This document shows positions 17,900 to 53,484 of a stretch of 53,694 nucleotides of DNA, one piece after another; the stretch's first letter is position 1; every line of letters begins with the position of its first letter. The translations under genes were made by a program, and so were the position numbers. Where the stretch lies: positions 1-53,694 of IMG/VR virus record IMGVR_UViG_3300026382_000022; one strand, given 5' to 3'. The DNA is from a virus. Under the pieces are notes generated by a model. The model had not been told where the DNA came from. It saw only the letters and a program-made list of their open reading frames with translations, and did not search any database.

Positions 17900-18472
17900 T
17901 TAAAATTTAAAATTTGTACTAAAATATTTATTAGTATTAAAATCTGCATTACTTAAAGCAGTATCACCAATGATAGGTACATAAACTATATTTAAATTAT
18001 ATGTAACTAAATTACTTCTAACTTTACCAACAACACTACCATAAATAGTTATTGTATCTGTAGTGTCAACACCATCACTAATATCTGGTGCTCTATATTT
18101 AAAAGTACCATTAGTATTATTTATATTACTTATAGTGCCCTTATCTACAGTTATCTCATAAACTGTACCAGGTACATGATTAGTTATATTAACACTAATT
18201 TCTTCATTTTCATTTATACCAGTTGGTATATCTAAAACAGGACTAGGTGCAATAGGTAATAAATCTAAAATATTATCTACAGTAACCAACTCATTAGCAG
18301 GAACACCACCAACTTTTAAAGTATTGACAGCCTGTTGTACTAGTAATCCTACAGGAGTGCCGTCTATCAATGTAGCCATTCCATTAGAAGCTATTAAAAC
18401 TTCTCCAAAACTTAATTTTCTATTATTATAAACTAAATATCCATCTCTACTTAGTCTCCAAGTATCAGCCAT
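17900..18472 (-). CDS. Virion-type protein, paralogue of 18491-19099
   Basis: 190 residues, ATG 18472 after AAGGAA. It shares with the next upstream gene an N-terminal 'RDGYLVYNN' element, the central 'NTLKVGGVPANELVTV' (about 50-65) and a C-terminal tail ending in aromatic residues (Asn-Phe-Lys-Phe). The 'KVGGxxAxxxxT' motif is common in phage tail-fibre proteins just before the distal domain. Residues 75-165 look like an Ig/cadherin-like domain. It probably assembles with the large propeller protein downstream, perhaps as a fibre adaptor. Function inferred from context only. Confidence 0.65.
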   Translation of the reverse strand: MADTWRLSRDGYLVYNNRKLSFGEVLIASNGMATLIDGTPVGLLVQQAVNTLKVGGVPANELVTVDNILDLLPIAPSPVLDIPTGINENEEISVNITNHVPGTVYEITVDKGTISNINNTNGTFKYRAPDISDGVDTTDTITIYGSVVGKVRSNLVTYNLNIVYVPIIGDTALSNADFNTNKYFSTNFKF

Positions 18473-20743: not shown

Positions 20744-22780
20744 TTATTTTATAATTTCAGTACTTGTTAGACTACCATAGTAATCTAAAATAGTTTCGTT
20801 AGGCTTCACTAAAGTATCTAATAAGTGATCACTTCTCTTTTGATCAGAAAATGATCTAGGGTCAGCAATTTGTTTTGGTACTCTTTGGTAAGCATATCCT
20901 GAACCTAAACTTCTATTAGAGACAACATCCATAATACCAGCCATTTGTGGATTATCACAAAATCTACCTAATCTATAATCTCTTTCTTTTAAAGACACCA
21001 CTGTAAACGCATAGACTATAACTTCAATAACTGCTATATTAACTTCTAGTTTACTATTAACAGTATCGAATATTTTTTGTAATAAAGACTCTCTAGTCTC
21101 TATACTATATTCACCTTTTACAGTCTTTACAGATTTTAACATAGACTTAACTTGACTAGCTAAAACTATATAACTAAATTCTATTTGTGGTAGTTTTAAT
21201 ATAGGTAAATTAGACTTCCATTTATTTAGATTTATCACATATCTATCACGAGCATCTAAAGTATATCCTACTTGTACTATGTATTCTAGAAATTTATATG
21301 TGAACGAACCTTTTTTACTTCCATCTTTAACTACTATAGGATAATATTCAGTTTTACCATTTTTTTCTATAGATAAAATGAATGACTCTATTCTAGATAT
21401 TCTAGCTGGATCAAACTTTAGCATGTTTTTACCAGAAATTATATCTTTTAAACCAAATGCATTGGACTGTGATACTATTAAATTTATATTAACATCTTTA
21501 TTAATAATACCTTTTTTAAATGCATACCCATCGTTATCTTTAATGATGAAAAACTTATCAGCAGTGGCGTCTAAAGAGATGGTAGTAGAAGTAGCGGTAC
21601 CTGTTAAGTGTTTAGTAGATAAAATACTTTGTGTGAATTTTTGTGTTAATGTAGCTGCTGATATGTGACCTATGTTAGTATGTTCATGTATACTATAAAA
21701 TAATTCACCATAACAAGCTTTACATATTTTGTGTTTATTGTTATGTTTACAATGTAACACACTTCTAATTAAAATAGTTTTACCTATAAGATGTGTATCT
21801 GTAGATTTTATAAACCCACATTCCTCACTTTTAGGCATTTTATAATATTTACCAACTAAGTTATTTAAATCACTTTTACCAGAAACATTCTCCTCACCAG
21901 ATCTAACATACCATTCTAAATATTCTGTGTTACCACAATCACAGTCATCTACCTGTTCTACCTCCATACAAACTAATTGTAACTCTCTAGCAAAATATTC
22001 GCTATCCTGAATTGCTTTATCTGCTAGAAATAGTGCCTTAGCTGCTGATCTAGATTCAGCGCTAATATCATACATACTATTCATACCTAATGTAAATGAA
22101 GTAGCTAATGGTTTCTTAAAAATACTACCATCCATCTCAGAAACATAACCTCTAGATGCTAAAACTTGTTTAGCCTGGTTAGCATTAATCTGTCCAGAAA
22201 TATAACTTCTAGCTAATGGTGATGATTTTATTCTCTCATCACTATACATTATTTTATCTAAAATTTTATATGACTCTTCTATACTATCAGGAGTTTCTTC
22301 ATTAGATACTTTCTGCATAGCTTTTATTAATTCAGGATCTAATTGTATTTCCAAAAGATCTAAGATATTCATAGATGATGAAAAGTTCAAATTATAATAA
22401 ACAACTTCATTATAAATTAAATTTAATATCTGATACATTCTTTCATAAAGCTGATCTCTGAATGATAAATTATTACCAGGTATTAAAATATTTTGTATCA
22501 TATCTTTAAATATGACTTCAAATACTTTATTAATACTTTTAGATGTGAATATATTATTACTGTAATAATTAGAAATATTATATTCAGATTTAATGGGTAA
22601 CTCTGGTATTAATAAAATTAATTCCCACAAATATCTATTCATTATCATCTCTGATGATTTTACTTCACATACTTTATTATCCTCGAATAATATGTGATTA
22701 GTACTTCTATAACCACGTAACATCTCTAGTCTATCTATACCCATAAATTCTCTTACTGGTATCGCTTTTATTTTACCCAT
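20744..22780 (-). CDS. Phage multisubunit RNA polymerase, beta' C-terminal part
   Basis: 678 residues, ATG 22780 after AGGAGT. It matches the C-terminal half of bacterial beta'. Residues 240-270 ('ESRSAAKALFLADKAIQDS') correspond to the region before the trigger loop. Cys280/282, Cys344, Cys353 and Cys356 match the second beta' zinc site, the last ones in 'HKICKACYG'. Residues 370-391 ('GHISAATLTQKFTQS') match the bacterial 'VGIIAAQSIGEPGTQLT' helix. The catalytic Asp triad lies in the N-terminal part, which must be encoded elsewhere, as in phiKZ and AR9 relatives with split subunits. A conserved promoter element precedes the gene. It works with the beta part at 25465 or with another polymerase set. 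Confidence 0.85.
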   Translation of the reverse strand: MGKIKAIPVREFMGIDRLEMLRGYRSTNHILFEDNKVCEVKSSEMIMNRYLWELILLIPELPIKSEYNISNYYSNNIFTSKSINKVFEVIFKDMIQNILIPGNNLSFRDQLYERMYQILNLIYNEVVYYNLNFSSSMNILDLLEIQLDPELIKAMQKVSNEETPDSIEESYKILDKIMYSDERIKSSPLARSYISGQINANQAKQVLASRGYVSEMDGSIFKKPLATSFTLGMNSMYDISAESRSAAKALFLADKAIQDSEYFARELQLVCMEVEQVDDCDCGNTEYLEWYVRSGEENVSGKSDLNNLVGKYYKMPKSEECGFIKSTDTHLIGKTILIRSVLHCKHNNKHKICKACYGELFYSIHEHTNIGHISAATLTQKFTQSILSTKHLTGTATSTTISLDATADKFFIIKDNDGYAFKKGIINKDVNINLIVSQSNAFGLKDIISGKNMLKFDPARISRIESFILSIEKNGKTEYYPIVVKDGSKKGSFTYKFLEYIVQVGYTLDARDRYVINLNKWKSNLPILKLPQIEFSYIVLASQVKSMLKSVKTVKGEYSIETRESLLQKIFDTVNSKLEVNIAVIEVIVYAFTVVSLKERDYRLGRFCDNPQMAGIMDVVSNRSLGSGYAYQRVPKQIADPRSFSDQKRSDHLLDTLVKPNETILDYYGSLTSTEIIK

Positions 22781-22933: not shown

Positions 22934-23557
22934 ATGCACGATAATAAAATAATTATAGACTCTATCAAAAATACTATAAATGATATATCATACGATAAAA
23001 AACGGCTTAATAAAATAATTGAGTCCATAAATAAAGGTGATGTGACTATAGATATAAATGATAGATTAATAAATAATTTAAATAATTTAGAAATTGAAGA
23101 TAGTGTTATAGAAACAGCATTTGAATACTTAACACTAATATTAAGTAATTTAGAATCACAAAAAATAAATAATACTAAAAATGTTACTAACGAAATGATC
23201 GTTATATTAACACATGTGCTTAATGGTGTTAGAAATTTAGAATACTGTGCATTACAACTAACTAATGAAATAGAAGAACATAAAATTAAACTATTAGAGT
23301 ATAAAGAAAAAAATAGTGTAGCTATAAAAGAACCATCTGTTGATAGTACAAAAAAAGAAAATAATAAATCTGATATGCTTAAATCTTTTTTACCTAATAA
23401 TAAGGTTTCTAATATAGTAGTATGGCTTATGGGTTTTATATTGTTTTTAGTTATTTTATTTAAAATTGATAATATAGCTACTTCTAAAAGTTTAGAATCA
23501 ACTTCCGAATTATTACATAATATTAAAGGAAAAGAAAATGTTACAAAAAATAGATAA
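22934..23557 (+). CDS. Membrane protein of the two-component operon
   Basis: 207 residues, ATG 22934 with AAGGAG upstream. The first 130 residues are largely helical and probably form a coiled-coil bundle. A Lys/Ser-rich linker leads to one transmembrane helix (about 158-178) and a short C-terminal tail. There is no signal peptide, so the N-terminal part should face the cytoplasm. It is the first gene of a three-gene operon and overlaps the response-regulator gene by 20 nt. It could be the receiver's target, a scaffold for the kinase, or an effector controlled by the system. I do not recognise the family. Confidence 0.7.
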   Translation: MHDNKIIIDSIKNTINDISYDKKRLNKIIESINKGDVTIDINDRLINNLNNLEIEDSVIETAFEYLTLILSNLESQKINNTKNVTNEMIVILTHVLNGVRNLEYCALQLTNEIEEHKIKLLEYKEKNSVAIKEPSVDSTKKENNKSDMLKSFLPNNKVSNIVVWLMGFILFLVILFKIDNIATSKSLESTSELLHNIKGKENVTKNR

Positions 23558-24104
23558 TATCGTATATAAATATCTAGATAAAGAGTATTTAGATACTATA
23601 GAAGGTTTAGATATAGATTATGATCCATCTAAACCTACCATAGTTATAGCTGATGATTTTTCATCTATAATTTCATTATTTAAAAAACTAATGAAAAGAG
23701 CTAAACTAATAGATAAATTTAATATTATTTATCTAGAAGGTACATTAGCTCCAGTTATTTTATTAAAAACATTATTAAAATATCCTGAAATTAAAATAGA
23801 TATTATAATAACTGATATAACGTTTGGGCTAATGGGTATTGATAAAGATAAGCATAAAAAATTTATAGATGGTATCTTTATAACTAAAATACTAAAAGAA
23901 TATAATGATGATATGGTGTATCTATTTGTAACAGGTCACATCATTAATAAAAGCTCTACTCATGAATATTACGATGAATATAAAGAATTTTCTAACGATG
24001 AACTTTTAGACCATGTAGTTTATAAAGATACACCAATTTCTACTAATCTTTCTTTAATAGAAAACTTATTTAAAGGAACAGAGTTTGAAAAATATATTAA
24101 ATAA
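23538..24104 (+). CDS. Stand-alone response-regulator receiver protein
   Basis: 188 residues, ATG 23538 with AAAGGA upstream inside the preceding gene. Residues 33-165 follow the receiver (REC) fold. They have the acidic pair Asp39-Asp40 after strand 1 ('TIVIADD'), the phospho-acceptor Asp93 at the end of strand 3 ('IDIIITDI'), Thr132 after strand 4 ('YLFVTG') and Lys163 after strand 5 ('HVVYKD'). All five key residues of a phosphorylatable receiver are present. There is no DNA-binding or enzymatic output domain, so it would act like CheY or Spo0F by protein contact. The usual Lys-Pro is Lys-Asp. About 20 residues (99-114) form a longer loop after the active site. It overlaps the kinase gene by 20 nt. 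Confidence 0.8.
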   Translation: MLQKIDNIVYKYLDKEYLDTIEGLDIDYDPSKPTIVIADDFSSIISLFKKLMKRAKLIDKFNIIYLEGTLAPVILLKTLLKYPEIKIDIIITDITFGLMGIDKDKHKKFIDGIFITKILKEYNDDMVYLFVTGHIINKSSTHEYYDEYKEFSNDELLDHVVYKDTPISTNLSLIENLFKGTEFEKYIK

Positions 24105-25425
24105 AATAAAATTTAAAAATCTAGAAAATTGGATAAAAGCATTTAAGATAACTTTCATGTATGCTAATATATTACTTATTCTGATCATTATAACTAACGG
24201 TATGCTCATGTACACTACTGATAAATTAATTTCTAAAACTGTCATATCTGCTATAGATACTTTTTATAGTATAAATGATGAAAAAATTAAAAATAATTTA
24301 TTAGACACATATTTAAAAGATCTTGGTGATACATTTTACATATTATATAAAGATGATAAAGTGGTAAAAAGCAATATAAGTAGTGATCTTTACTATAGTG
24401 AACATACAGATGATCATATTAAAAAATGTATATTTGTTAATAACGATATATATTTAAAAACAAGAACTAAAGATATGGTGCTGTATGTACCAATAGTTTC
24501 TATTAATAAAGATCATTTTATAATAATGATAATATTTTATTTTCTTTTTATAATTTTAATTACTGCAATGTTAAATAAGTTAGTTTTTAAAGAAAGAAAT
24601 AGTTATTTAGAAGCTATAACATCTAAAGAAAGAGAATTACATAGAGAGATATTAACTAACATAGCTCTTAATATTAATCATGAAATGAATAGTCCCTTAT
24701 TAGTAATAAGAAGCATTTTTGATGAAATAAGATATGTGTTACATGAAGAACTTAATAAAAAGAAACAATGTCCGTATAATGACAATGAATGCGTTAGTGA
24801 TTTTGTAGAAGTAATAAATGATGTTTTAAATGATATTGACTTAGGTGAAGATAGTTTAGAATCTATATACAGTATCATAAGACCTTTAGGTGATTATAAG
24901 AGTATCGAATATAGTAATGGTAATAAGAACTTCTATATGCTAATACAATCTGCCATAAATATGATTAAATATAATAAATCTTATTTAATAAATGATATAG
25001 CTATAGATGAAACATTAGAAAAATATTCTTTATACCATGATAATGGTATGACTAATGGAACATTCTTAACTATGGTTATCAACCATATAAAAAATAGTTT
25101 AGAAGCTAATGCTGACAAACTTAAATTCTATATACAAAAAATAGATGAAAAATATATTTATTTAGCTATAGAAGATAATGGTAACGGTATACCAAAAAAA
25201 ATAGTTAAAGATATATTTAATGTTAACATAACCAGTAAAGCTGATATTAGTAAATACGAACGAGGTGTTGGTATGTATATTAATAAAATTTTACTTAAAG
25301 AAAAATATGATGGTGATGTTTGGGTTGAATATACTGAAACTAATAAAGGAACTATATTTATATTAAAAATTAGATATGAACCTTTTAAATACTACAATGA
25401 TGGTGTAAACCATATTAAAAAATAA
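24085..25425 (+). CDS. Membrane sensor histidine kinase
   Basis: 446 residues, TTG start at 24085 with AAAGGA 7 nt before it. The two transmembrane helices (about 20-43 and 144-164) enclose a ~100-residue periplasmic sensor domain (about 44-143). A short juxtamembrane coil leads to the H-box 'LNINHEMNSPLLVI' with phospho-acceptor His199. ATPase motifs follow: N-box 'VINHIKNSLEA' (Asn333, Asn337), G1 'EDNGNGIP' (Asp364) and G2 'RGVGMYI' (Gly394, Gly396). It is thus a complete, apparently active HATPase kinase. The linker between the H- and N-boxes carries a Cys-x9-Cys insertion. It is the last gene of the operon, next to a cognate-looking receiver. Kinases in phage genomes are rare, and a full pair is rarer. 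The sensed signal is unknown. Confidence 0.88.
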   Translation: MKNILNKIKFKNLENWIKAFKITFMYANILLILIIITNGMLMYTTDKLISKTVISAIDTFYSINDEKIKNNLLDTYLKDLGDTFYILYKDDKVVKSNISSDLYYSEHTDDHIKKCIFVNNDIYLKTRTKDMVLYVPIVSINKDHFIIMIIFYFLFIILITAMLNKLVFKERNSYLEAITSKERELHREILTNIALNINHEMNSPLLVIRSIFDEIRYVLHEELNKKKQCPYNDNECVSDFVEVINDVLNDIDLGEDSLESIYSIIRPLGDYKSIEYSNGNKNFYMLIQSAINMIKYNKSYLINDIAIDETLEKYSLYHDNGMTNGTFLTMVINHIKNSLEANADKLKFYIQKIDEKYIYLAIEDNGNGIPKKIVKDIFNVNITSKADISKYERGVGMYINKILLKEKYDGDVWVEYTETNKGTIFILKIRYEPFKYYNDGVNHIKK

Positions 25426-25464: not shown

Positions 25465-27606
25465 TTAATCTTCTTTACTGTATACTATTTCAATACCAGA
25501 GGCATTGAAAATACTTTCTACTAACTTAAGACCAACATCACCACCATAAGGTAGTTTATTCCTATCAATAATAGTATCTATATTAGTAGGAGTATCTGAT
25601 CTAAGTATCGTGTTATAGATAGTCTCATGTGTTTTAGGACTACTAGCTCTATCTTTAAGTTCAGCAATAGCTTTACGACCACCATAGGCAGCTATTAACC
25701 TAACCTCAGTTTCACCAAGAACCCTAGTAGCACTATTTTTATAGTTTATATTTGGTCTATCGAATTTAGATACACCAACTGGTAACCCGTAATGGTTTGC
25801 TTTAGCTGATGCTGCTGATAAAAAGTTATCTGCATTTTTAGATAAACATATCATATACAATGGTGCTATCAGTATATCCTCTAGAGAAGTTTTAACTGTA
25901 CCATCAATATTAAATAGTAATTTACCTATCTTAGGTGCATAGATACTATTGTGTATTTCTGTAACAATACTATAAGCCTTTTTCTCATTAGATACTTTAT
26001 AATAGATATAGAATTCTTTTTCTATAATCTCTAAAAGTATAGTTCTTTTAACTTCTAATGAATTAACCGCAGAATAAGCTTCATATTGTTCATTACCAAT
26101 AATTCTTAATAAACCTAGAATATGGTCGAATAAAGTATTAATAGTATTATCATTAGCATTTTCTACTAATTCAATATTACTAATATTATCTTTATTATTA
26201 CCAATTAATGTTGTTTTAACATGGTGTTGTATTTCTCTAGAAGTTGCTGAGAAATATTGTATATATAATTTAGCTAAGTTCATACGACCAATAGTAGATG
26301 TACTATCTGCTATAATATCTGCTCTATTACCATATTCATCTATAGGCATCTGATCATCTGGTAATATACTAACAATAACACCTTTACCACCATTAAGACA
26401 ACTTAATTTAAGTCCTTTCTTACCTTTAATAACATGTTCCACAACAAATGTTACACGGAAAAGATCTAATTCTTGCTTCTTAAAAGTTTTCTTTAGCTTA
26501 ACTCCTTCTTTATTAACCATAGCATATGCCTCTACCATAAGTCTTGAAAGTTTTTCACTTGTAGGTAATTGCCAGTTACGAACTCTGTGATAATGTTCTT
26601 TCTGAACTTTTTCATAAACGTCTATCAATTTTTCATAATAGTTGATTAAACTTTTATTATATTTCTCAGCTATCTCATTAACACCTGTGTATATAGATTT
26701 TTTAAATCTATCGTTAGTATGTACTATTATGTCTACTACTTTACCTTTAGGATGTTTAGTATAGAAAGGTTTATCAAACACACTATCATATTCTAGAACA
26801 TCTTTCTTAGATATAAGTGCTGGTGCTAGTTCTGTATTATATTTTCTTAAAGCTATAATAACACCATCTTCATTAACATACTCACCTATCTCTGGAAATG
26901 GTTTATAATTATCCTCATCACCATATAAGTTTAAAGGAAAACTATCTGAACCATATTCAATAGTTATCGTTTCAAATGTTTTATGTTCTAGCTTTTCAGC
27001 ATATGATTCGGATATAACAAAACCATCTTCAGCAACCTCAGGCATAGTCATTAAAGCCAAGTTAGCATTTAATCCAAACCCGAATCCGTTATTTTCTTTA
27101 ACTGATGGTGAAGTAGCTAATACAGTTCCTGCTGGGATTACATAACCAGGTACTAATGATTCTAATAGTTCATAATTCCATTTATATTTAAAACCATAAT
27201 TTTGATGTATATTAAATTTATATGGTACTGAATAATAATCTATCTCCCCTGTAATTAAATCTTCATAAACTATAACTATTTCAGCTATAGCGTTAACTTC
27301 ATCAGCAGAAATACCACTATATCTATCTATAACAGCGATCACTCTAGAATCATGCTCAGCTTTAACATTCCATACATTATCAGCTAGTTGTCTCTCTAAC
27401 CCAGTTTGTACTATTGGTTCTTCACCATGCTCTAGTGTTACTGTTTGTGATAAATGTGCTGCCATCATAACATTTCTAGATGCACTATTATAATTAGTAA
27501 ATGGGTTAATAGCATGTATAGATAATAACTCCTCTTGTACTGGTAATCCTTCTAACTCTTTTTCTCTATCGAAAATATTTCCTGTCACTGGTATATTATA
27601 ACTCAT
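25465..27606 (-). CDS. Phage multisubunit RNA polymerase, beta C-terminal part
   Basis: 713 residues, ATG 27606 with GAGGAAAT upstream. Key beta features are in order. 'NYNSASRNVMMAAHLSQTV' (about 38-56) matches the bacterial 'HNQSPRNTYQCAMGKQA' segment. Glu193-Asp194 in 'AEDGFVISE' match the Glu-Asp of the beta active-site region. Lys400 and Lys408 in 'LKLSCLNGGKGV' are spaced 8 apart like the two catalytic lysines. 'DIIADSTSTIGRMNLAKL' (about 430-446) matches 'DIVLNPLGVPSRMNIGQI'. The C-terminus 'ETEVRLIAAYGGRKAIAEL' matches the beta clamp end. The N-terminal half of beta is not in the window. It forms a two-gene unit with the small upstream gene. Confidence 0.88.
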   Translation of the reverse strand: MSYNIPVTGNIFDREKELEGLPVQEELLSIHAINPFTNYNSASRNVMMAAHLSQTVTLEHGEEPIVQTGLERQLADNVWNVKAEHDSRVIAVIDRYSGISADEVNAIAEIVIVYEDLITGEIDYYSVPYKFNIHQNYGFKYKWNYELLESLVPGYVIPAGTVLATSPSVKENNGFGFGLNANLALMTMPEVAEDGFVISESYAEKLEHKTFETITIEYGSDSFPLNLYGDEDNYKPFPEIGEYVNEDGVIIALRKYNTELAPALISKKDVLEYDSVFDKPFYTKHPKGKVVDIIVHTNDRFKKSIYTGVNEIAEKYNKSLINYYEKLIDVYEKVQKEHYHRVRNWQLPTSEKLSRLMVEAYAMVNKEGVKLKKTFKKQELDLFRVTFVVEHVIKGKKGLKLSCLNGGKGVIVSILPDDQMPIDEYGNRADIIADSTSTIGRMNLAKLYIQYFSATSREIQHHVKTTLIGNNKDNISNIELVENANDNTINTLFDHILGLLRIIGNEQYEAYSAVNSLEVKRTILLEIIEKEFYIYYKVSNEKKAYSIVTEIHNSIYAPKIGKLLFNIDGTVKTSLEDILIAPLYMICLSKNADNFLSAASAKANHYGLPVGVSKFDRPNINYKNSATRVLGETEVRLIAAYGGRKAIAELKDRASSPKTHETIYNTILRSDTPTNIDTIIDRNKLPYGGDVGLKLVESIFNASGIEIVYSKED

Positions 27607-28029: not shown

Positions 28030-28341
28030 ATGATAACTGATATGATTAAGAATAATGAAATAAATAAAAAACTTATAAGTGATTGGTATAACTCTATAGA
28101 TGTAATATTACATAATAGTGATATTAAGACAATCAATATACCAGGTAACATTGGTGATAAATATAAAGGTGATCTATATGGGTTATTTTTAGAATTAGGT
28201 ATAGCTCCAGAATATATTTATCCACATATTTTAGCTAATGGATATGTTAATAGTCAAGATTATAATGGTAAAAAATTAGATATGGTTATTTTAGATAATA
28301 TGGTATTAAAAAATTATTTAAATTATTTTAAATCTGAATAA
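28030..28341 (+). CDS. Hypothetical small protein
   Basis: 103 residues, ATG 28030 with AAAGGA 7 nt upstream. No signal peptide, membrane helix or known motif. The central 'INIPGNIGDKYKGDLYGLF' followed by 'GIAPEYIYPHILANGYVNS' resembles a small globular domain seen in phage proteins that carry a 'GY' loop. It is bounded by a promoter-like element on the left and a 34-bp palindrome on the right, so it is a one-gene unit. Function unknown. Confidence 0.6.
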   Translation: MITDMIKNNEINKKLISDWYNSIDVILHNSDIKTINIPGNIGDKYKGDLYGLFLELGIAPEYIYPHILANGYVNSQDYNGKKLDMVILDNMVLKNYLNYFKSE

Positions 28342-28342
28342 C

Positions 28343-28376
28343 AACACTAGTAGAACTTATAAGTTCTACTAGTGTT
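28343..28376. terminator. 34-bp perfect palindrome between convergent genes
   Basis: A perfect 17-bp inverted repeat with no spacer; the apex is CTTATAAG. It starts right after the stop codon at 28341 and overlaps the stop of the GGDEF gene. Suited to termination on both strands. Confidence 0.75.
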
Positions 28377-28875
28377 AACTACGTCTATCAAATTCTTGTT
28401 TCTTATACCACTTTGCTTTTTCAGAAGATAATTTTTTACTAATATAAATCATAAGATCATCTTTAGTTTCATAATCTTTTAAATTAGCTATAGCAAAAAC
28501 ACACTGATCTATTTCATCAATATTTGGTTTATCTTTAGTAAATATAGCAAACTCATCACCGCCTATACGAAAATAATCACCCTTAGGAAATTGTTTTTTA
28601 ATTTCATTGGCTACATTAATTATTAGTTTATCGCCAGCAGTATAACCAAATTTATTATTTGTATAATGTAATCTATTAATATCAACTATAGTTAAATAGA
28701 TATCTTCAGTACTATTGTTATAATCTATAAATGCTAATTCATAATCTCTTCTTAATAACAATCCTGTTAATAAGTCATATTTATAAATTTCTAGTTGTTT
28801 TTCTAAATAATTTATTTTCTTTTTTAATAAGCTATTCTCTTCTGTGAGTAACGTGGACATATTAGTGATCTTCAT
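28375..28875 (-). CDS. GGDEF-domain protein (diguanylate cyclase-like)
   Basis: 166 residues. ATG 28875 has AGGA 6 nt upstream; the longer frame (to 28902) lacks one. A coiled-coil helix (about 8-32) leads into the domain, which starts with Asp-x-Leu-Thr-Gly (34-38). Asp65 ('TIVDIN') is the metal ligand. Asn73 and Asp82 ('TNNKFGYTAGD') match the guanine-binding pair of known cyclases. The signature 'RIGGDEFAIF' (103-112) is intact. The usual inhibitory Arg-x-x-Asp site is absent (Pro-Lys-Gly-Asp). The domain is cut short after about 150, so activity is uncertain. If active it would make c-di-GMP and alter host motility or biofilm state. It lies 3 kb from the two-component operon. Confidence 0.82.
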   Translation of the reverse strand: MKITNMSTLLTEENSLLKKKINYLEKQLEIYKYDLLTGLLLRRDYELAFIDYNNSTEDIYLTIVDINRLHYTNNKFGYTAGDKLIINVANEIKKQFPKGDYFRIGGDEFAIFTKDKPNIDEIDQCVFAIANLKDYETKDDLMIYISKKLSSEKAKWYKKQEFDRRS

Positions 28876-28933
28876 TTTTATTCCTAGTTTGTATATATTC
28901 AATTAATTTAATGTTAAAAAAAAAAGGATACTT

Positions 28934-29674
28934 ATGTTATATACCTCTTATATGGGTAATTTAAAAAATATTAAAGAAAAGAAAATAGCTATAATGCGTT
29001 TTTTACCAGATTGGAGTAAACCATATATAGACTCTAATTATATTAAATTAGCACCTAGTAAAGACTTATTAACAAAATATAAAGATAAAATAGTGAACTA
29101 TGAAGAATTTAAATTAAAATATTTAGAAGAAATTAAAGATATTGATATTAAAAAACTTTATAAGAAATTTAAAAATACTACATTGTTATGCACTTGTAAA
29201 CCTGGTATTGGTTGTCATAGACATATATTAGCAGAACACTTAATAAACAATGGTTATATGGTTAAAGAAAAAGATATAGATCGTGTACTTAAAAATATTA
29301 AAGTTAAAATATTTAAAAAGGTAACACCGAATACTGTAAATAAAAATAAAGATATCTATTTTCTATACACCGATAGTTTATTAAAAGAAAAGAAAAATCA
29401 TTTTAGAGATTTAGATAACACATTACCTATTACGATTAAAAGAAGTGATAAGAACGTGTATAACAGATTTTTAAATGATAGTGAGTATCATAGTAGTATT
29501 TTAGAGAAAGATGTCTATATGGTACTTCTAAAAGCCATACAGGGATATGTTATAGGTATATCTGAAGATTTCTTTAATACAGATTTAAAAGATCTAAGAG
29601 ATCATGCTCCATTATTATATATAATGGTGTATACAAGAATAAGAAATAAAATAGAAAATAAAAAAATATACTAG
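28934..29674 (+). CDS. DUF488-domain protein with C-terminal extension
   Basis: 246 residues, ATG 28934 with AAGGA upstream. Residues 1-105 match the DUF488 family, including the terminal 'LLCTCKPGIGCHRHILAEHL' element with Cys86, Cys88 and Cys94-His95-Arg96. A ~140-residue extension follows that I do not recognise; it has a short helical, Lys-rich linker and a globular end ('VYMVLLKAIQGYVIGIS'). DUF488 proteins are of poorly known function and occur in many phages and bacteria, sometimes in defence or stress loci. The gene is alone on its strand and is closed by a perfect palindrome. Its place next to GGDEF and two-component genes suggests an accessory or host-takeover role. Confidence 0.68.
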   Translation: MLYTSYMGNLKNIKEKKIAIMRFLPDWSKPYIDSNYIKLAPSKDLLTKYKDKIVNYEEFKLKYLEEIKDIDIKKLYKKFKNTTLLCTCKPGIGCHRHILAEHLINNGYMVKEKDIDRVLKNIKVKIFKKVTPNTVNKNKDIYFLYTDSLLKEKKNHFRDLDNTLPITIKRSDKNVYNRFLNDSEYHSSILEKDVYMVLLKAIQGYVIGISEDFFNTDLKDLRDHAPLLYIMVYTRIRNKIENKKIY

Positions 29675-30033: not shown

Positions 30034-31446
30034 CTATCTAAATCTATTTATACCACTAGGTCTAACTTGTTGTGGTTGTTGCTGATACATAGGTTGTTGT
30101 TGATACATAGGTTGTTGTTGCATCATAGGTTGCTGCATCATAGGCTGTTGCATCATAGGTTGCTGCATCATAGGTTGTTGTTGCATCATAGGTTGTTGTC
30201 TATTAACACCCATTGGTTGCGCTTGTTGTACCTGTTGTTGATATACAGGTTGCACCATTTGTTGTGGTTGCATTTGTGGCATTTGTTGTTGCACTGGTTG
30301 CACAGGAACACCACCACCATATAATAGTTTTTGCTCTAATGTTAACTCAGGAGGCTGTACTGCTTGTTGTGGTTGTGCTGTTTGTTGTTGTACCACTTGT
30401 TGTTGTCCCACAGGAGCTTGTTGTGTTACAGTTTTAACATCTTTAGTCATAGCATTAGCTAATGCTTGGTTAGTATTAGCATTATTAGCTGTAGCTTTCA
30501 TACGGTTAATATCTAAGTCACTAGGGATAGTTAAAAGTTCTGAAGAGAATTTAGATAACTCATTAAGTTCTTTTTGTGCTATTTTAAGATTAAACTTATT
30601 TTCATCAACAGTTTTCTCATCCACAAATTTTAGTAACTTTAATAGCGTGTTGAATCTATTAGCTACTTTAAGGAATAATGTAAATAGTGCTATGAATCCA
30701 GGAGACTCATTGTCATTACTACCTACAGTGATAGTGTTGTTTTCATCCATATCTTTAAAAACATATTTATAAAGAACTTTGAACACTTTGATATCTTTAG
30801 GTCTTAATCTAAAACCAGAAATCTTAGTTTCTTTATCAGCTTCTTCTAACGCTTCTAATAACGGGAATGTTAGCACTGCTAATCTGTTATATTTAACTCC
30901 TTTATAGTTACCAGTCTTTTTAAGATACAGTTTAACTAGTTTAGGATTAACAGATGACTCAAACGATTTAGCATATAGTTTAACCCAAGTATCTATAGAT
31001 TTAGGATCTATAATTTCTTTAGTTCTACCATTATCAGCTACGGATAAGCTAGAGATAAATTTATTCAACTCTAGAGGAGTTTTAGTTTGTAGCTCTTTTT
31101 TCATACCTAGTTCTAAAAGAAGTTCACCTATAGCCGAAAATGCATGTGCTATTTTAGCTTCAACTATATCTTTAGTTTTCTTTAAAGAAACTGTATCTCC
31201 TTTAATAACATCCTCATTAAGAGGATTATATAAAACTTTAGTAGTTTTAAGTTCACCATTTTCATCTGGTTCATTAAGAGTATCGATGTGTTCTTTTAGT
31301 GGTAACACCATTGGTTTACCATTAACTGTGAATAGTACAGATTTACCATTACCTGGATCAATCTTTATATAACCTTCTTCATCATACTCAATACCTAGTG
31401 ATGTTAAAACATCTTTATAAAAATCTATTAAATTATTATGTTGCAT
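30034..31446 (-). CDS. Virion or scaffold-type protein with Gln/Met-rich C-terminus
   Basis: 470 residues, ATG 31446 after AAGGAAA. Residues 1-325 form a helical globular part without known motif. Residues 345-460 are low complexity, Gln/Pro/Met-rich, with a tandem Gln-Gln-Pro-Met-Met/Tyr pattern in about nine units. The last ten residues (Arg-Pro-Ser-Gly-Ile-Asn-Arg-Phe-Arg) are conserved-looking, and a similar Met-Gly-Val-Asn-Arg stretch occurs near residue 400. Such tails are prion-like and favour multivalent binding or condensates. It is the last of three genes in a unit driven by the element at 34485. A role in capsid assembly or in a phage compartment is possible; neither is shown. Confidence 0.62.
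   Translation of the reverse strand: MQHNNLIDFYKDVLTSLGIEYDEEGYIKIDPGNGKSVLFTVNGKPMVLPLKEHIDTLNEPDENGELKTTKVLYNPLNEDVIKGDTVSLKKTKDIVEAKIAHAFSAIGELLLELGMKKELQTKTPLELNKFISSLSVADNGRTKEIIDPKSIDTWVKLYAKSFESSVNPKLVKLYLKKTGNYKGVKYNRLAVLTFPLLEALEEADKETKISGFRLRPKDIKVFKVLYKYVFKDMDENNTITVGSNDNESPGFIALFTLFLKVANRFNTLLKLLKFVDEKTVDENKFNLKIAQKELNELSKFSSELLTIPSDLDINRMKATANNANTNQALANAMTKDVKTVTQQAPVGQQQVVQQQTAQPQQAVQPPELTLEQKLLYGGGVPVQPVQQQMPQMQPQQMVQPVYQQQVQQAQPMGVNRQQPMMQQQPMMQQPMMQQPMMQQPMMQQQPMYQQQPMYQQQPQQVRPSGINRFR
30061..30210 (-). repeat. Tandem Gln/Met coding repeat
   Basis: Short in-frame units of TTGTTGcatcat type encode repeated Pro-Met-Met-Gln-Gln and Pro-Met-Tyr-Gln-Gln. The copies are nearly identical, so length variation by slippage is likely. 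Confidence 0.8.
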
Positions 31447-47797: not shown

Positions 47798-48343
47798 CTA
47801 ATCATTTAATCCACAATGCAATAGCTCATATAGATAATCACCATAATATGATCCGTCACACCAGTCATATTTTTCATCAGAGACATCTTCTTCATTAGTA
47901 AGATTATCTAAGTTATAATCTTCAATACAATTTTTATATTCAACTAGTGACTCTTTAATATTTTTGAATTCTAAATATATATCTGATGTCTCTTTAATAT
48001 CTACTTCCCTAGTTATATCTTCGTTATATAAGAAAATACTACCACTTTTAATATATGGTTTTAAAAGCAATATTAGATTTTCTATATCATTATCTTTATT
48101 CTTGTTACCAATACACACATCTAGTAGGACATCATTAACATTACTTATATCTATATTTTTTTTAAGATTATCTGTGAAAGTATTATCTAAGAAATCACAT
48201 CTAGAATTTTTAATCATACCATCTGGTAGGTTTAAAGTATCTAATTTCTCTTCTTTAACTTGTTTTAACCATTTAACTATATCTGGTCTATCACCAAGAT
48301 CTAATTTAAGATCTTTAAATCTACACTCATAATATGTACTCAT
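47798..48343 (-). CDS. Hypothetical acidic protein
   Basis: 181 residues, ATG 48343, overlapping the stop of the endonuclease gene by 4 nt. It is acidic, with six cysteines spread over the protein and an Asp/Asn-rich centre. The C-terminus 'YDWCDGSYYGDYLYELLHC' is rich in aromatics. No known motif. The tight coupling suggests a partner or immunity-like factor of the endonuclease, or simply an independent passenger gene of that mobile unit. Confidence 0.55.
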   Translation of the reverse strand: MSTYYECRFKDLKLDLGDRPDIVKWLKQVKEEKLDTLNLPDGMIKNSRCDFLDNTFTDNLKKNIDISNVNDVLLDVCIGNKNKDNDIENLILLLKPYIKSGSIFLYNEDITREVDIKETSDIYLEFKNIKESLVEYKNCIEDYNLDNLTNEEDVSDEKYDWCDGSYYGDYLYELLHCGLND

Positions 48344-51021
48344 TTTTCATCCTTTTTATATATTAGATATTTTTCAACATCTTTTAATTTAGTATCTCCT
48401 GGCAAATTTTCTCCTCTACAAAGTTCTAAGAAGTCTTTATACCAATTGTTACCAACTCTGTATTTAAAATATTTAGATAATCTAAATAATAGGTATTCTT
48501 CTAACATATCAAATTTATCATATTTAATACGTATTAAATAATAACCATGTTGTTTAGCTAAATTATTCTTTAATTCATCACGATCCTTACTTGCTTGTAA
48601 TTCTTTATCACCACCCCATTTTTTTATAGATTTAAAATGTTGCTCACCATCATATTCTATTAAAATATTGAGTTCAGGTAGAAAGAAATCAAAACGAAGT
48701 CTTTTATTATCAGCTTCAGGCATCACATATTCTGGTATATTTTTAATATCGTTATCTTGTAGAAATCTATTAATTTTAATTATAGCTTCTGATGAAGAAC
48801 ATATTGGACACCCGTGTCCATCTAGGTGATCATTAGGTCTTTGTTTAAAATCACCATGTTCTTTACATGTAATAATAACTGGGGCTTTACTGTTATAGTA
48901 ATCAACCTTATCATAATTATATCTATTACCATGTATTACTTTAGCTTTCTTAACAAATTCTTCTGTATCAGAGACATGTAATCTAGAACATTTAGAACAT
49001 CCATGTTTTGATCTAATATGATGTTCTGGTGTTTGTTGGAATTTACCATGTAATGGACAAATTATAGTAGCATGTGAAGTATATCCAATATAGTTCATTT
49101 TACTATAGTCAAATTTATTACCAAATTTTTCTTTAGCTCTTTTTATGAACTCTTTTTCATCTATAGTCCTAACTGTGCTACATTTTAAACAACCACCACT
49201 AACTGTTGCTGCTAAATGGTTATTTGGTATTACAGAGAAATCACCATGCTCTTTACATGTAACCATAATAGGTGTGGTCATTTTTTTAAAATTTACTTTA
49301 TCATAACTAAATCTATCACTATGTACTTCTCTAGCTCGTTCTACGAATTCATCTTTAGTTATTCTAGTTGCCTCCATAGCACATTTCTTACACCCTCTAG
49401 CTTTGGCTCTGACGTGTTCACCAGCTATTTGCCAAAATGAACCATGTGTTGGACAAATGATTTCTACTTTAGTAGCTTTATTAATATAGTTAACTTTACT
49501 GTAATCGTATTTATCACCATGTAGTAATCTAGCTTTCGCAACCCATACATCTTTGCTACTAGTTTGTTTAGAGTCTGTTAATTCTCTACTACATTTAGGA
49601 CAACCTGTTTCTGATGTTAAATGGGATTTAGGTAGCATAGTTACTTCACCATGTTTAGGACAATCAAAAGTGATTTTTTTATACATACCAGCATATACTA
49701 CTTTGCTGTAATCGAATTTATCACCATGTTTAGCTTTAGCTTTTTCTATAAACTCTGAAGTACTTGTTTTAGGTATTCGTCTATTCTCTATAGAACATCT
49801 TGGACACCCAGTACCAGACAAATGTGTTGTTGTGTTTTGTTCGAATATACCATGTTTAGGGCATATGATTTTAACTTTATTGTTAGTACCACTACCTTTA
49901 TAATCCACTAATGAATAATCATATTTATCACCATGTTTAAATCTAGCTTTTTCTATAAATTCATTAGTATTTATTTTAGGCTTATGTACTTTTTCAACGC
50001 CACATTTAGGACAACCATATCCATATAAATGTGAATCTGCTCGTTGTTTAAAAATACCATGTTCAGAACATACTATATCTGTATAATCAGAACCAATAGT
50101 ATATACTACTTTGCTATAATCATATTTGTCACCATGTTTAGCTCTAGCTCTCTTTATGAATTCTTCAGTAGTAAGTTTTTTAGAATTACTCATATTTTCA
50201 ATAGCACATTGCTTGCATCCTTTATTACGTAAATGATTATGTGGCTTCTGTTCATACTCACCATGTTTTTTACATATAAGAGTAACTGGTGTATTACTAT
50301 CTACAAAATTTACTTTACTATAATCTACACTATCACCATACAGTTCTTTTGCCTTAGCTAAGAATATCTCTTTAGTTAAAGTGAAAGGTTTTTTTAATAC
50401 TTCTTTCTGGTGCTCAATACTGCACTTAGGACACCCAGTTACACTATTCACATGTGATACTGGTAACATTTGAAATTCACCATGTATAGGGCATATAATG
50501 TTCACTGGTTTATCTTTAGTAAAATAAATAACTTTATTATAATCATATTTGTCACCATGTTTAGCTTTAGCTTTTTCTATCCATCTATTTGTTTTAAATT
50601 CAGTTGGTATAGTATTTTTACCTATAGCACATTTAGGACACCCCATACCAGACATATGGTTACGCGCTAGTTGTTGAAAATCTCCATGTACAGGACAACC
50701 AATAGTAATATTTTCAGATCCTATAGTGTAATTAGATTTACTGTAGTCATATTTATCACCATGTACTTCTTTAGATTTTTTTATAAAATCAGCAGTTGTT
50801 AGCTTACGTGCATTTACTCTTTTTTCAATTGAACATTTAGGACACCCAGATCCTTCATAATGTGCTTTAGCTTGTTGCTGAAAATCTCCGTGTATTGGAC
50901 ATGTTATTGTTATAGGTTTTTTACTACCTTTATATATAGATTTAGCATAACTATATTTACCATCATGTGTTTTTCTAGATTTAATAATCCATTCCTCAGT
51001 TGTCATTTTTTTATTAGCCAT
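48340..51021 (-). CDS. Multi-repeat DUF723 endonuclease (VSR/EDxHD-like)
   Basis: 893 residues. ATG 51021 has AAGGAG upstream; a GTG one codon earlier is less likely. It starts with 11 tandem repeats of about 66 residues (about 1-755) of the type 'HGDKYDYSKVxY', then 'IxCPxHGxFxQ', then 'HLxGxGCPKC'. Each has one Cys-x-x-His plus one Cys-x-x-Cys, so each probably binds one zinc and reads a few bases of DNA. The C-terminal ~135 residues are a PD-(D/E)xK-like nuclease: 'RLRFDFFLPELNILIEYDGE' then 'YLIRIKYD'. This layout is known from VSR-related EDxHD homing endonucleases. Eleven recognition units suggest a very long target. It is a free-standing mobile gene 340 bp from the terminase gene. Confidence 0.8.
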   Translation of the reverse strand: MANKKMTTEEWIIKSRKTHDGKYSYAKSIYKGSKKPITITCPIHGDFQQQAKAHYEGSGCPKCSIEKRVNARKLTTADFIKKSKEVHGDKYDYSKSNYTIGSENITIGCPVHGDFQQLARNHMSGMGCPKCAIGKNTIPTEFKTNRWIEKAKAKHGDKYDYNKVIYFTKDKPVNIICPIHGEFQMLPVSHVNSVTGCPKCSIEHQKEVLKKPFTLTKEIFLAKAKELYGDSVDYSKVNFVDSNTPVTLICKKHGEYEQKPHNHLRNKGCKQCAIENMSNSKKLTTEEFIKRARAKHGDKYDYSKVVYTIGSDYTDIVCSEHGIFKQRADSHLYGYGCPKCGVEKVHKPKINTNEFIEKARFKHGDKYDYSLVDYKGSGTNNKVKIICPKHGIFEQNTTTHLSGTGCPRCSIENRRIPKTSTSEFIEKAKAKHGDKFDYSKVVYAGMYKKITFDCPKHGEVTMLPKSHLTSETGCPKCSRELTDSKQTSSKDVWVAKARLLHGDKYDYSKVNYINKATKVEIICPTHGSFWQIAGEHVRAKARGCKKCAMEATRITKDEFVERAREVHSDRFSYDKVNFKKMTTPIMVTCKEHGDFSVIPNNHLAATVSGGCLKCSTVRTIDEKEFIKRAKEKFGNKFDYSKMNYIGYTSHATIICPLHGKFQQTPEHHIRSKHGCSKCSRLHVSDTEEFVKKAKVIHGNRYNYDKVDYYNSKAPVIITCKEHGDFKQRPNDHLDGHGCPICSSSEAIIKINRFLQDNDIKNIPEYVMPEADNKRLRFDFFLPELNILIEYDGEQHFKSIKKWGGDKELQASKDRDELKNNLAKQHGYYLIRIKYDKFDMLEEYLLFRLSKYFKYRVGNNWYKDFLELCRGENLPGDTKLKDVEKYLIYKKDEK
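48830..50990 (-). repeat. Array of 11 zinc-ribbon (DUF723-like) coding repeats
   Basis: Eleven in-frame units of about 195-205 bp. They are diverged at the DNA level but keep the Cys/His pattern. The array makes up five sixths of the gene. Confidence 0.85.
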
Positions 51022-51024
51022 CAC

Positions 51025-51363: not shown

Positions 51364-53484
51364 ATGATATTGTACAAAAGTGATTGGGATTTATATCCTG
51401 AAGCGATAATAGATACTAAGACTAGTAGTAAGACAGCTTTAGAATTAATGTCATTACTTAAAAAAATGGGTGTTGAAAATTGTTATTTCTTTTTAGCATT
51501 ACATGATCCAACATTACAAGGCGTTGATCCATATGATCCAAATCTTACGCAAGAACAAAAAATTAGAATAGCTTCAGAATGTTCTATTAATCCATGGTAT
51601 TTTTTTAGAGAGATAGCTAGAGGACCAGCATCTTCTGGTACTGAACCTATTAAGTTTAGATTCAATAGAGCTAACTTAGCATTATATTGGTTATTTTTTA
51701 ACCATATTACATCATTACTTATACAACCAAGACAAACTGGTAAATCATTTAGTACTGATATATTAATGACTGCACTAATGTCAACAGTTGTTAAAAATAC
51801 TAAAATACATTTATTAACAAAAGATGATAGTCTTAGAGTATCCAATATTACCAGACTAAAAGATATTTATAATGAGTTACCAGATTATCTACAGCTCAAA
51901 ACTAGAAAAGACACTAACAATACGGAAAAAATCACCATTTTAGCACTTGGGAATGAGTACATAACCTCAGTACCTCAGGCCTCAGTAAAGGGTGCATTAA
52001 ACCTCGGGAGGGGGCAAGTCTTGAGTATCCAACATGTGGATGAGTTGTTTTTCTTGAAAAACATACATATCACATTGCCAGCAATGTTAGCAGCTGGGGG
52101 TGCGGCTCGTGATGCCGCGGCTGCTAATGGTGAACCATATGGTAATATCTTTACATCTACAGCAGGATATCTAAATTCACCAGAGGGTAGATTTGGGTAT
52201 GAAGAAATTTATAAAAAATGTATGCCGTGGACTGAGAAACTTTATGATTGTAAAGATGAAGAAGAGTTAGTAGAAACCATTAAGAAAAATTCTCCTGGTA
52301 ATAAAGTAATGGTTCTTTTAGAATTCAACCATAGACAACTAGGTTATACTGATGATTGGTTACGTGGTAAAATAGCTGACGCTATGGCGTCTGGTGATGC
52401 TGTGTTAGCCGATTTTCTTAATATTTGGCCAGAGGGTAATGCAAGTTCACCTATTAGTAAAACATTACTTAAAGTAATGACCGATAGTAGAATAAATGAA
52501 CCATATACAGAAATTACTTCGTTCGGGTACGCCATCCGTTGGTATGTTACACAACGTGAATTAGAAACCATATTACCATCTAGAAAAATAGTTATAGCAC
52601 TAGATACATCTGATGCTGTTGGTAAAGATGATATAGCTATGATCATTAGAGATGTTAGGTCTGGTAAAACATTAGGTGTTGGTGTTTATAATGAAACTAA
52701 CTTAATAACATTCTCAGAGTGGTTAGGTTCACTATTCGATAGATTTGAAAATATGGTTATGATAATAGAGCGTAGAAGTAGTGGTGTTGCTATCATAGAT
52801 AATCTACTTAAAATATTACCAGCAAAAGGTTTAGATCCATTCGCTAAATTATTTAACTGGGTAGTAGATGAGAAAGAAGAATACCCTAAAAGATTTGAAG
52901 AAATAGCTAGAGGTGTTAAACATAGAGATTATAATGTCTATGTAAGGTATAGAAAACATTTTGGATATGCAACTGCTGGTAGTGGTAAATCTAGTAGAGA
53001 TGGTTTATACGGTGATAACTTATTAGCTGCTATAAAATATACTGGTAATGTTATGCATGATAAACAATTAATAGATCAAGTATCTGGGTTAACAGTTAAA
53101 AATGGTAGAATAGATCATAAATCTGGTAGTAACGATGACTTAGTTATAGCGTGGATGTTAAGTTATTGGTTCTTAGTAAAAGCTAGAAATAAAGAATTTT
53201 ATGGTATTAGGAATAATGAAGTATTGTCTATAGTTATAGATAATGAAATGCGTAAAGGTGAAACCAGAGATATGGTTGAACAAAAATATCAGTTAGCTCT
53301 TAAAGCTAAGATAGATGAGTTATTAGAGATGTTGAAGAATGAATCTAATCCATTTAAAATAGATATTTTAACTAATAAAATAAAAATGATGTATAGAGAT
53401 ATAGATACTAGTTATATACCATCGTTTAACATAGATGATGTTATAGAAAATATCATGATAGAAAAAAGAAAACGTTATAGATAA
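51364..53484 (+). CDS. terL: Terminase large subunit (ATPase and nuclease)
   Basis: 706 residues, ATG 51364 with AAAGGA upstream. ATPase: Walker A 'QPRQTGKS' (121-128), Walker B 'VLSIQHVDE' with Asp226-Glu227, coupling motif 'FTSTAG' (263-268). Nuclease (RNase H-like): Asp in 'KIVIALDTSDAVG' (about 410-422), Glu in 'MVMIIERRSSG' (about 460), Asp in 'GSNDDLVIAWM' (about 587-597). All catalytic residues of both halves are present. It cuts concatemeric DNA and pumps it into proheads. DNA coding residues 192-258, which include Walker B, has a different base composition and codon use from the rest of the gene (see findings). A hairpin follows the stop codon. Confidence 0.92.
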   Translation: MILYKSDWDLYPEAIIDTKTSSKTALELMSLLKKMGVENCYFFLALHDPTLQGVDPYDPNLTQEQKIRIASECSINPWYFFREIARGPASSGTEPIKFRFNRANLALYWLFFNHITSLLIQPRQTGKSFSTDILMTALMSTVVKNTKIHLLTKDDSLRVSNITRLKDIYNELPDYLQLKTRKDTNNTEKITILALGNEYITSVPQASVKGALNLGRGQVLSIQHVDELFFLKNIHITLPAMLAAGGAARDAAAANGEPYGNIFTSTAGYLNSPEGRFGYEEIYKKCMPWTEKLYDCKDEEELVETIKKNSPGNKVMVLLEFNHRQLGYTDDWLRGKIADAMASGDAVLADFLNIWPEGNASSPISKTLLKVMTDSRINEPYTEITSFGYAIRWYVTQRELETILPSRKIVIALDTSDAVGKDDIAMIIRDVRSGKTLGVGVYNETNLITFSEWLGSLFDRFENMVMIIERRSSGVAIIDNLLKILPAKGLDPFAKLFNWVVDEKEEYPKRFEEIARGVKHRDYNVYVRYRKHFGYATAGSGKSSRDGLYGDNLLAAIKYTGNVMHDKQLIDQVSGLTVKNGRIDHKSGSNDDLVIAWMLSYWFLVKARNKEFYGIRNNEVLSIVIDNEMRKGETRDMVEQKYQLALKAKIDELLEMLKNESNPFKIDILTNKIKMMYRDIDTSYIPSFNIDDVIENIMIEKRKRYR
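51937..52136 (+). other. Foreign-composition tract inside terminase gene
   Basis: In 51961-52140 I count 87 G+C in 180 bases (48%), against 17 in 60 (28%) in 51841-51900. Codons rare elsewhere in the gene, such as GGG, AGG, CTC, TTG, GCC and GCG, cluster here. The tract codes for the Walker B region and keeps the frame. It looks like a gene-conversion footprint. Confidence 0.7.

Follow-up and report, generated by a model that had tools for sequence, protein, structure and literature searches.

A stand-alone mini-GGDEF protein in a phiKZ-like jumbo phage fragment is a candidate unregulated diguanylate cyclase

The stretch of DNA analysed here (the window) is a 53.7-kb virus record of 53,694 nucleotides. 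It contains the genes of a split multisubunit phage RNA polymerase at 20744-22780 and 25465-27606 (PHROG 3295, E 1e-172; PHROG 3015, E 1e-142), a terminase gene at 51364-53484 and related phiKZ-like genes. The terminase matches PHROG 2, and tblastn gave matches to PhiPA3, FLC9 and others. As judged from its sequence, the combination of a split multisubunit RNA polymerase and a related terminase identifies the window as a fragment of a phiKZ-like jumbo phage. A viral-contig search with an RNA polymerase subunit alone returned a single intron-split fragment.

Several minor features recur among the relatives. In the related contig G009 (3952-7862), a homing endonuclease gene of the HNH type splits the RNA polymerase beta gene after approximately residue 430. 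The window encodes a related HNH endonuclease of 894 aa at a different place (48340-51024, minus strand), and a 481-aa HNH endonuclease-like gene lies beside the beta gene in the sister phage L190 (13178-14623). The window also encodes a 470-aa protein (30034-31446, minus strand) with a C-terminal Gln/Met/Pro-rich repeat run (MQQQPMMQQP...); the repeat tail is present in G009 and L190 as well.

The GGDEF gene occupies 28375-28875 on the minus strand and encodes 166 aa from an ATG, or 175 aa if an upstream TTG is the start. The product consists of an N-terminal heptad helix (approximately residues 1-32), a compact GGDEF palm and a C-terminal helix bearing the catalytic Lys. The gene is on the opposite strand to both of its neighbours, namely a gene for a 103-aa phage protein on the left (28030-28341, plus strand; homologues in L190, 43%, and G009, 34%) and a gene for a DUF488/DUF7831 protein on the right (28934-29674, plus strand). 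A perfect 17+17 bp inverted repeat, forming a 34-bp palindrome, lies at 28343-28376 between the stops of the left neighbour and the GGDEF gene. Its predicted RNA fold has an energy of -22.3 kcal/mol (z -5.8); it has no T-run, is not scored as a classic terminator, and is probably a bidirectional terminator. The divergent intergenic region of 58 bp (28876-28933) must carry the start signals for both the GGDEF and the DUF488 genes, and no promoter consensus was found in it. The DUF488/DUF7831 protein is 40% identical to its L190 homologue and is absent at this place in G009; it also hits models of candidate defence systems (PDC-M45C, E 1.6e-10).

Comparison with L190 defines the insertion site. 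L190 is 65% identical to the window in beta', 50% in beta and 54% in the helicase, and is collinear with it across the GGDEF region except for extra genes between the kinase and beta. In L190, both flanking genes have homologues on the plus strand, separated by an empty 14-bp gap: the left one stops at 18341 and the DUF488 one begins at 18356. There is no GGDEF anywhere in the 107-kb L190 contig, nor in G009 or G010, the other two relatives where it could be sought. Because the flanking genes of L190 are 14 bp apart and the GGDEF gene is missing, the gene in the window is a single-gene insertion (moron). Its loss from all three relatives would be a less parsimonious alternative.

Consistent with the sequence-only reading, the protein contains a true GGDEF domain. 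It matches PF00990 with an E value of 2.3e-11 (44 bits against a gathering cut-off of 23.8) and TIGR00254 with 41.5 bits against 37.4, and phmmer matches it to diguanylate cyclases of the PDB. The PF00990 match covers only profile positions 3-104 of 161, so that the complete canonical fold (approximately 160 positions, five strands) is not present. The DxLTG motif, the metal Asp65, the guanine-binding Asn73 and Asp82, RxGGDEF and the C-terminal Lys153 are all intact, as had been claimed for the GGDEF motif, Asp65, Asn73 and Asp82. Numbers count from the ATG; the four residues are 66, 74, 83 and 154 in P0001, which begins one residue earlier. Specifically, Lys153 lies in the C-terminal helix, and its counterpart in the alignment is the Lys of the canonical ALYxAK helix. 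The phage protein thus shares with PleD and WspR the DxLTG motif, the metal Asp/Glu, the guanine Asn/Asp and the C-terminal Lys, but it differs from them in several respects. It has no receiver domain; in the canonical DxDxFKxxND segment, Phe-Lys is changed to Leu-His and ND to NN or NR (typical GGDEFs have Lys at the position of His71 and Asp at position 75); and the Arg four residues past the catalytic Lys is not kept, with basic residues nearby. There is also no RxxD (I-site) upstream of GGDEF, and the inhibitory Arg-x-x-Asp is indeed missing.

The AlphaFold2 monomer model, computed on the family alignment, is a confident palm with mean pLDDT of 92.6 and pTM of 0.79. The N-terminal half contains helices 2-33 and 43-54, strand 61-67, and helices 70-77 and 79-96. 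In the C-terminal half, GGDEF sits in a hairpin of strands 101-104 and 109-114, which is followed by strand 126-132 and helix 139-160. The model thus has four core strands, and lacks the helix between the hairpin and the fourth strand as well as the last strand. The sequence-only reading described a shortened C-terminal end. This is correct in that the last strand is lost, but it is not a simple truncation, since strand 126-132 and helix 139-160 with Lys153 remain and an internal helix is lost. That reading also counted a predicted fold without the C-terminal strands against a cyclase; one strand is lost from the predicted fold, but the palm core and the catalytic helix are kept. Decay by C-terminal truncation was rejected, because the compact form is common to the whole mini-GGDEF family described below.

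The best Foldseek matches in the PDB are all diguanylate cyclases or GGDEF proteins, namely DgcR, DgcB, SiaD, SadC, DgcZ, WspR and PleD. The top set includes coiled-coil DgcB and a GCN4-WspR fusion. Caulobacter DgcB (6ttr), the GCN4-WspR fusion (3i5c) and Pseudomonas SiaD (7e6g) likewise run from a helical N-terminus straight into GGDEF, but their GGDEF domain is full, with the internal helix and last strand that are missing from the phage protein. The N-terminal helix of the phage protein has heptad periodicity, with two heptad positions 83-85% hydrophobic, and 0 of 2000 shuffles scored as high. This helix could give a constitutive coiled-coil dimer. Among viral models, the best matches are Bordetella phage CN1, uncultured phages, Bacillus phage G gp350 and SP-15.

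A viral-contig search with the single GGDEF protein as query gave no matches. An alignment with Yuavirus proteins retrieved L013, L014 and L038, and a second alignment retrieved L072-L083, L085 and L108. The resulting mini-GGDEF family comprises 18 proteins, the window protein and 17 homologues in other phage contigs. They are 138-201 aa long (some starts are uncertain) and sensorless, most have the N-terminal heptad helix, and all 18 match PF00990 at E<=0.001. The 17 homologue contigs are 15.7 to 235.6 kb long, and each of them contains a single GGDEF match. Twelve residues are invariant in P0001 numbering (D35, T38, D66, L70, N74, G82, R104, G107, D108, E109, F110 and K154). R43 is kept in 17/18, H71 in 16/18, the guanine Asp D83 in 16/18 (Asn in two homologues) and R/K at position 75 in 15/18, which gives the family signature L-H-x-x-N-R. 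RxxD at the canonical place, five residues before GGDEF, occurs in 0/18. Three related pairs have dN/dS of approximately 0.08-0.25, with synonymous sites partly saturated in two of them, and on these ratios the pairs are under purifying selection. PHROGs has no model for the short family, its GGDEF models being longer, and the PADLOC defence-system models gave no match for the GGDEF protein. Many GGDEF matches labelled "phage" in databases are bacterial contigs or large sensor proteins (DgcM beside dbpA in ON470595; Acinetobacter "MD-2021a" contigs) and were excluded.

In a tree of 68 GGDEF domains, including 35 bacterial domains and Yuavirus proteins, the 18 mini proteins lie on one side of a branch with support of 96/85, with a core of 16 at 99/96, and the Yuavirus and bacterial domains lie opposite; the tree is midpoint-rooted, so that the status of the 18 as a clade depends on the root. 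The closest relative of the window protein is L072 (40%), on a 235.6-kb contig in which no member of the phage RNA polymerase family and no related terminase was seen. The L014 contig has a related terminase (43%). Spread of mini-GGDEF between phage lineages is likely. None of the 78 GGDEF frames from the 80 best bacterial and archaeal loci, among the matches listed, is a stand-alone short protein of the mini-GGDEF type; the two listed frames shorter than 230 aa are a fragment of 83 aa and a protein of 203 aa from an archaeal MAG. By sequence comparison, the family thus appears to be phage-only in this sampling, among the matches listed.

Phage GGDEFs have been recorded earlier in single genomes, in Vojvodinavirus/Yuavirus (PMC8471281) and in a Mu-like marine contig (PMC7785012). 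Searches of the accessible literature, subscription papers and preprints aside, turned up no account of a cyclase family specific to phages. The stand-alone GGDEFs of Yuavirus/Vojvodinavirus siphophages (AN14_48, YuA gp44, Bordetella CN1/CN2/LK3) are likewise short (approximately 155 aa) and sensorless, with a short N-terminus, a compact C-terminus and largely similar catalytic residues. However, they fall in a different clade from the window protein, are 23-28% identical, keep the canonical ND, in some cases have SGDEF or AGDEF, and belong to temperate siphophages rather than a jumbo phage. Biofilm overproduction has been reported for B. bronchiseptica lysogens of LK3 (PMC8471281). Bacillus phage G gp350 (254 aa) and the Bacillus phage SP-15 diguanylate cyclase (183 aa) are also GGDEF proteins of large phages, matched by fold and sequence; the match of gp350 to the family spans half of the query, at 33%, and both are outside the tree. 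Panoptes OptS/mCpol resembles the phage protein as a small stand-alone palm-fold cyclase, but it is a host defence protein in which GGDEF is nearly absent and which makes 2',3'-c-di-AMP (PMC12657218). The phage protein, in contrast, has a PF00990 match and an intact GGDEF motif, and membership of the Panoptes mCpol type was rejected.

An operon at 22934-25425 (plus strand) encodes a membrane protein, a receiver and a histidine kinase, as identified by profile and fold matches. By fold the receiver matches CheY-like receivers, although searching the window for Pfam receiver domains, and the PDB with the sequence of the receiver-like protein, returned nothing. The receiver-kinase pair may be a phage-specific two-component system. 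Corresponding pairs occur in L190 (8546-10948), where the upstream membrane-protein gene is also kept, and in L109 (1189-3517, minus strand). In the window and L190 the operon separates RNA polymerase beta' from beta, whereas the two polymerase genes are adjacent in G010. The sequence-only reading joined the operon and the GGDEF gene in a single cluster for signal manipulation. Both are signal-transduction modules within 6 kb of each other, and G018, an otherwise different 227-kb contig, bears both a mini-GGDEF gene and a receiver-kinase pair, though approximately 48 kb apart. However, in the window the GGDEF gene is approximately 3 kb from the operon, on the other strand, with RNA polymerase beta between. 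Moreover, L190 has the operon and no GGDEF, so the two are not one cassette and independent gain and loss is already suggested, and a relative of the kinase is found in only 1 of the 17 GGDEF-bearing contigs, some of which are fragments. Functional linkage was rejected on the L190 and kinase counts, and joint action is highly improbable.

We propose that the moron of this phiKZ-like jumbo phage encodes a minimal, sensorless diguanylate cyclase, constitutively dimeric and insensitive to feedback, and that this enzyme raises c-di-GMP in the course of infection; we put the probability of this reading slightly above one half (about 0.56). Specifically, the short N-terminal coiled coil would permanently join two GGDEF palms, giving an enzyme that needs no input signal. 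Lacking RxxD, the enzyme would not be inhibited by its product, and while the phage infects the cell it would turn host GTP into c-di-GMP. c-di-GMP governs motility, pili and surface sugars, and many of these are phage receptors. The infected cell would probably be affected in its surface properties or its motility (e.g. receptor or pilus display, superinfection, attachment). Catalysis is suggested by the invariance of the catalytic residues and the low dN/dS, constitutive activity by the coiled coil and missing sensor, and freedom from product inhibition by the lack of RxxD. The earlier suggestion of an active, feedback-insensitive enzyme is supported indirectly. Against an active cyclase stand the Leu-His and NN/NR changes, the Arg not kept past the catalytic Lys, the missing internal helix and last strand, and the replacement of the guanine Asp in two homologues.

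The same changes bear on the alternatives. A GGDEF-fold enzyme with another product, in which the Leu-His/Asn-Arg signature marks another (possibly cyclic) nucleotide acting on the nucleotide-based immunity of the host as a decoy or counter-signal, would account for the family-specific residues (L70 in 18/18, together with H71 and R/K at 75) and for the confinement of the family to phages in this sampling, and related palm enzymes such as Panoptes mCpol do make other cyclic dinucleotides (PMC12657218). The invariant guanine-specifying Asn and its largely kept Asp partner point instead to GTP, and no known defence-system model is matched; this alternative is unlikely. Less likely again is a broader version, in which several unrelated large-phage lineages share a phage-only family of minimal, unregulated GGDEF cyclases. 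Their altered LH..NR active site would make a different signal, alone or alongside c-di-GMP, with a role in counter-defence and not in the control of biofilms.

Many bacterial GGDEF domains are inactive, and the lost helix and strand and the non-canonical residues around the active site would fit a catalytically dead domain that binds GTP or a host protein (e.g. in dead heterodimers with host diguanylate cyclases) or acts as a sponge. Inactive GGDEF domains usually lack GGDEF or the metal residues, but here these are all invariant and the tested family pairs are under purifying selection, so we regard a dead domain as doubtful. Sequestration of c-di-GMP, which the sequence-only reading had offered for an inactive protein, is less likely, since the usual c-di-GMP site of GGDEF domains (RxxD) is the very part that is missing. 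A neutral passenger from a host genome would be consistent with a single-gene insertion on the opposite strand that G009, G010 and L190 lack. Such a passenger is improbable, given a phage clade that spans several phage backgrounds and is not a host GGDEF lineage, dN well below dS in homologue pairs, and an intact ORF and catalytic set.

If the proposed cyclase is active, these proteins would be very small cyclases (138-201 aa) with neither input nor feedback, and possible simple tools to set c-di-GMP levels. Phage rewriting of host c-di-GMP during infection would become directly testable, and some viruses may directly hijack this host signal. In one homologue contig (L073, 7180-11049), the mini-GGDEF gene lies amid NAD-salvage-like genes, judged by eye to be nicotinamide phosphoribosyltransferase-like, NadM-like and NAD-kinase-like.
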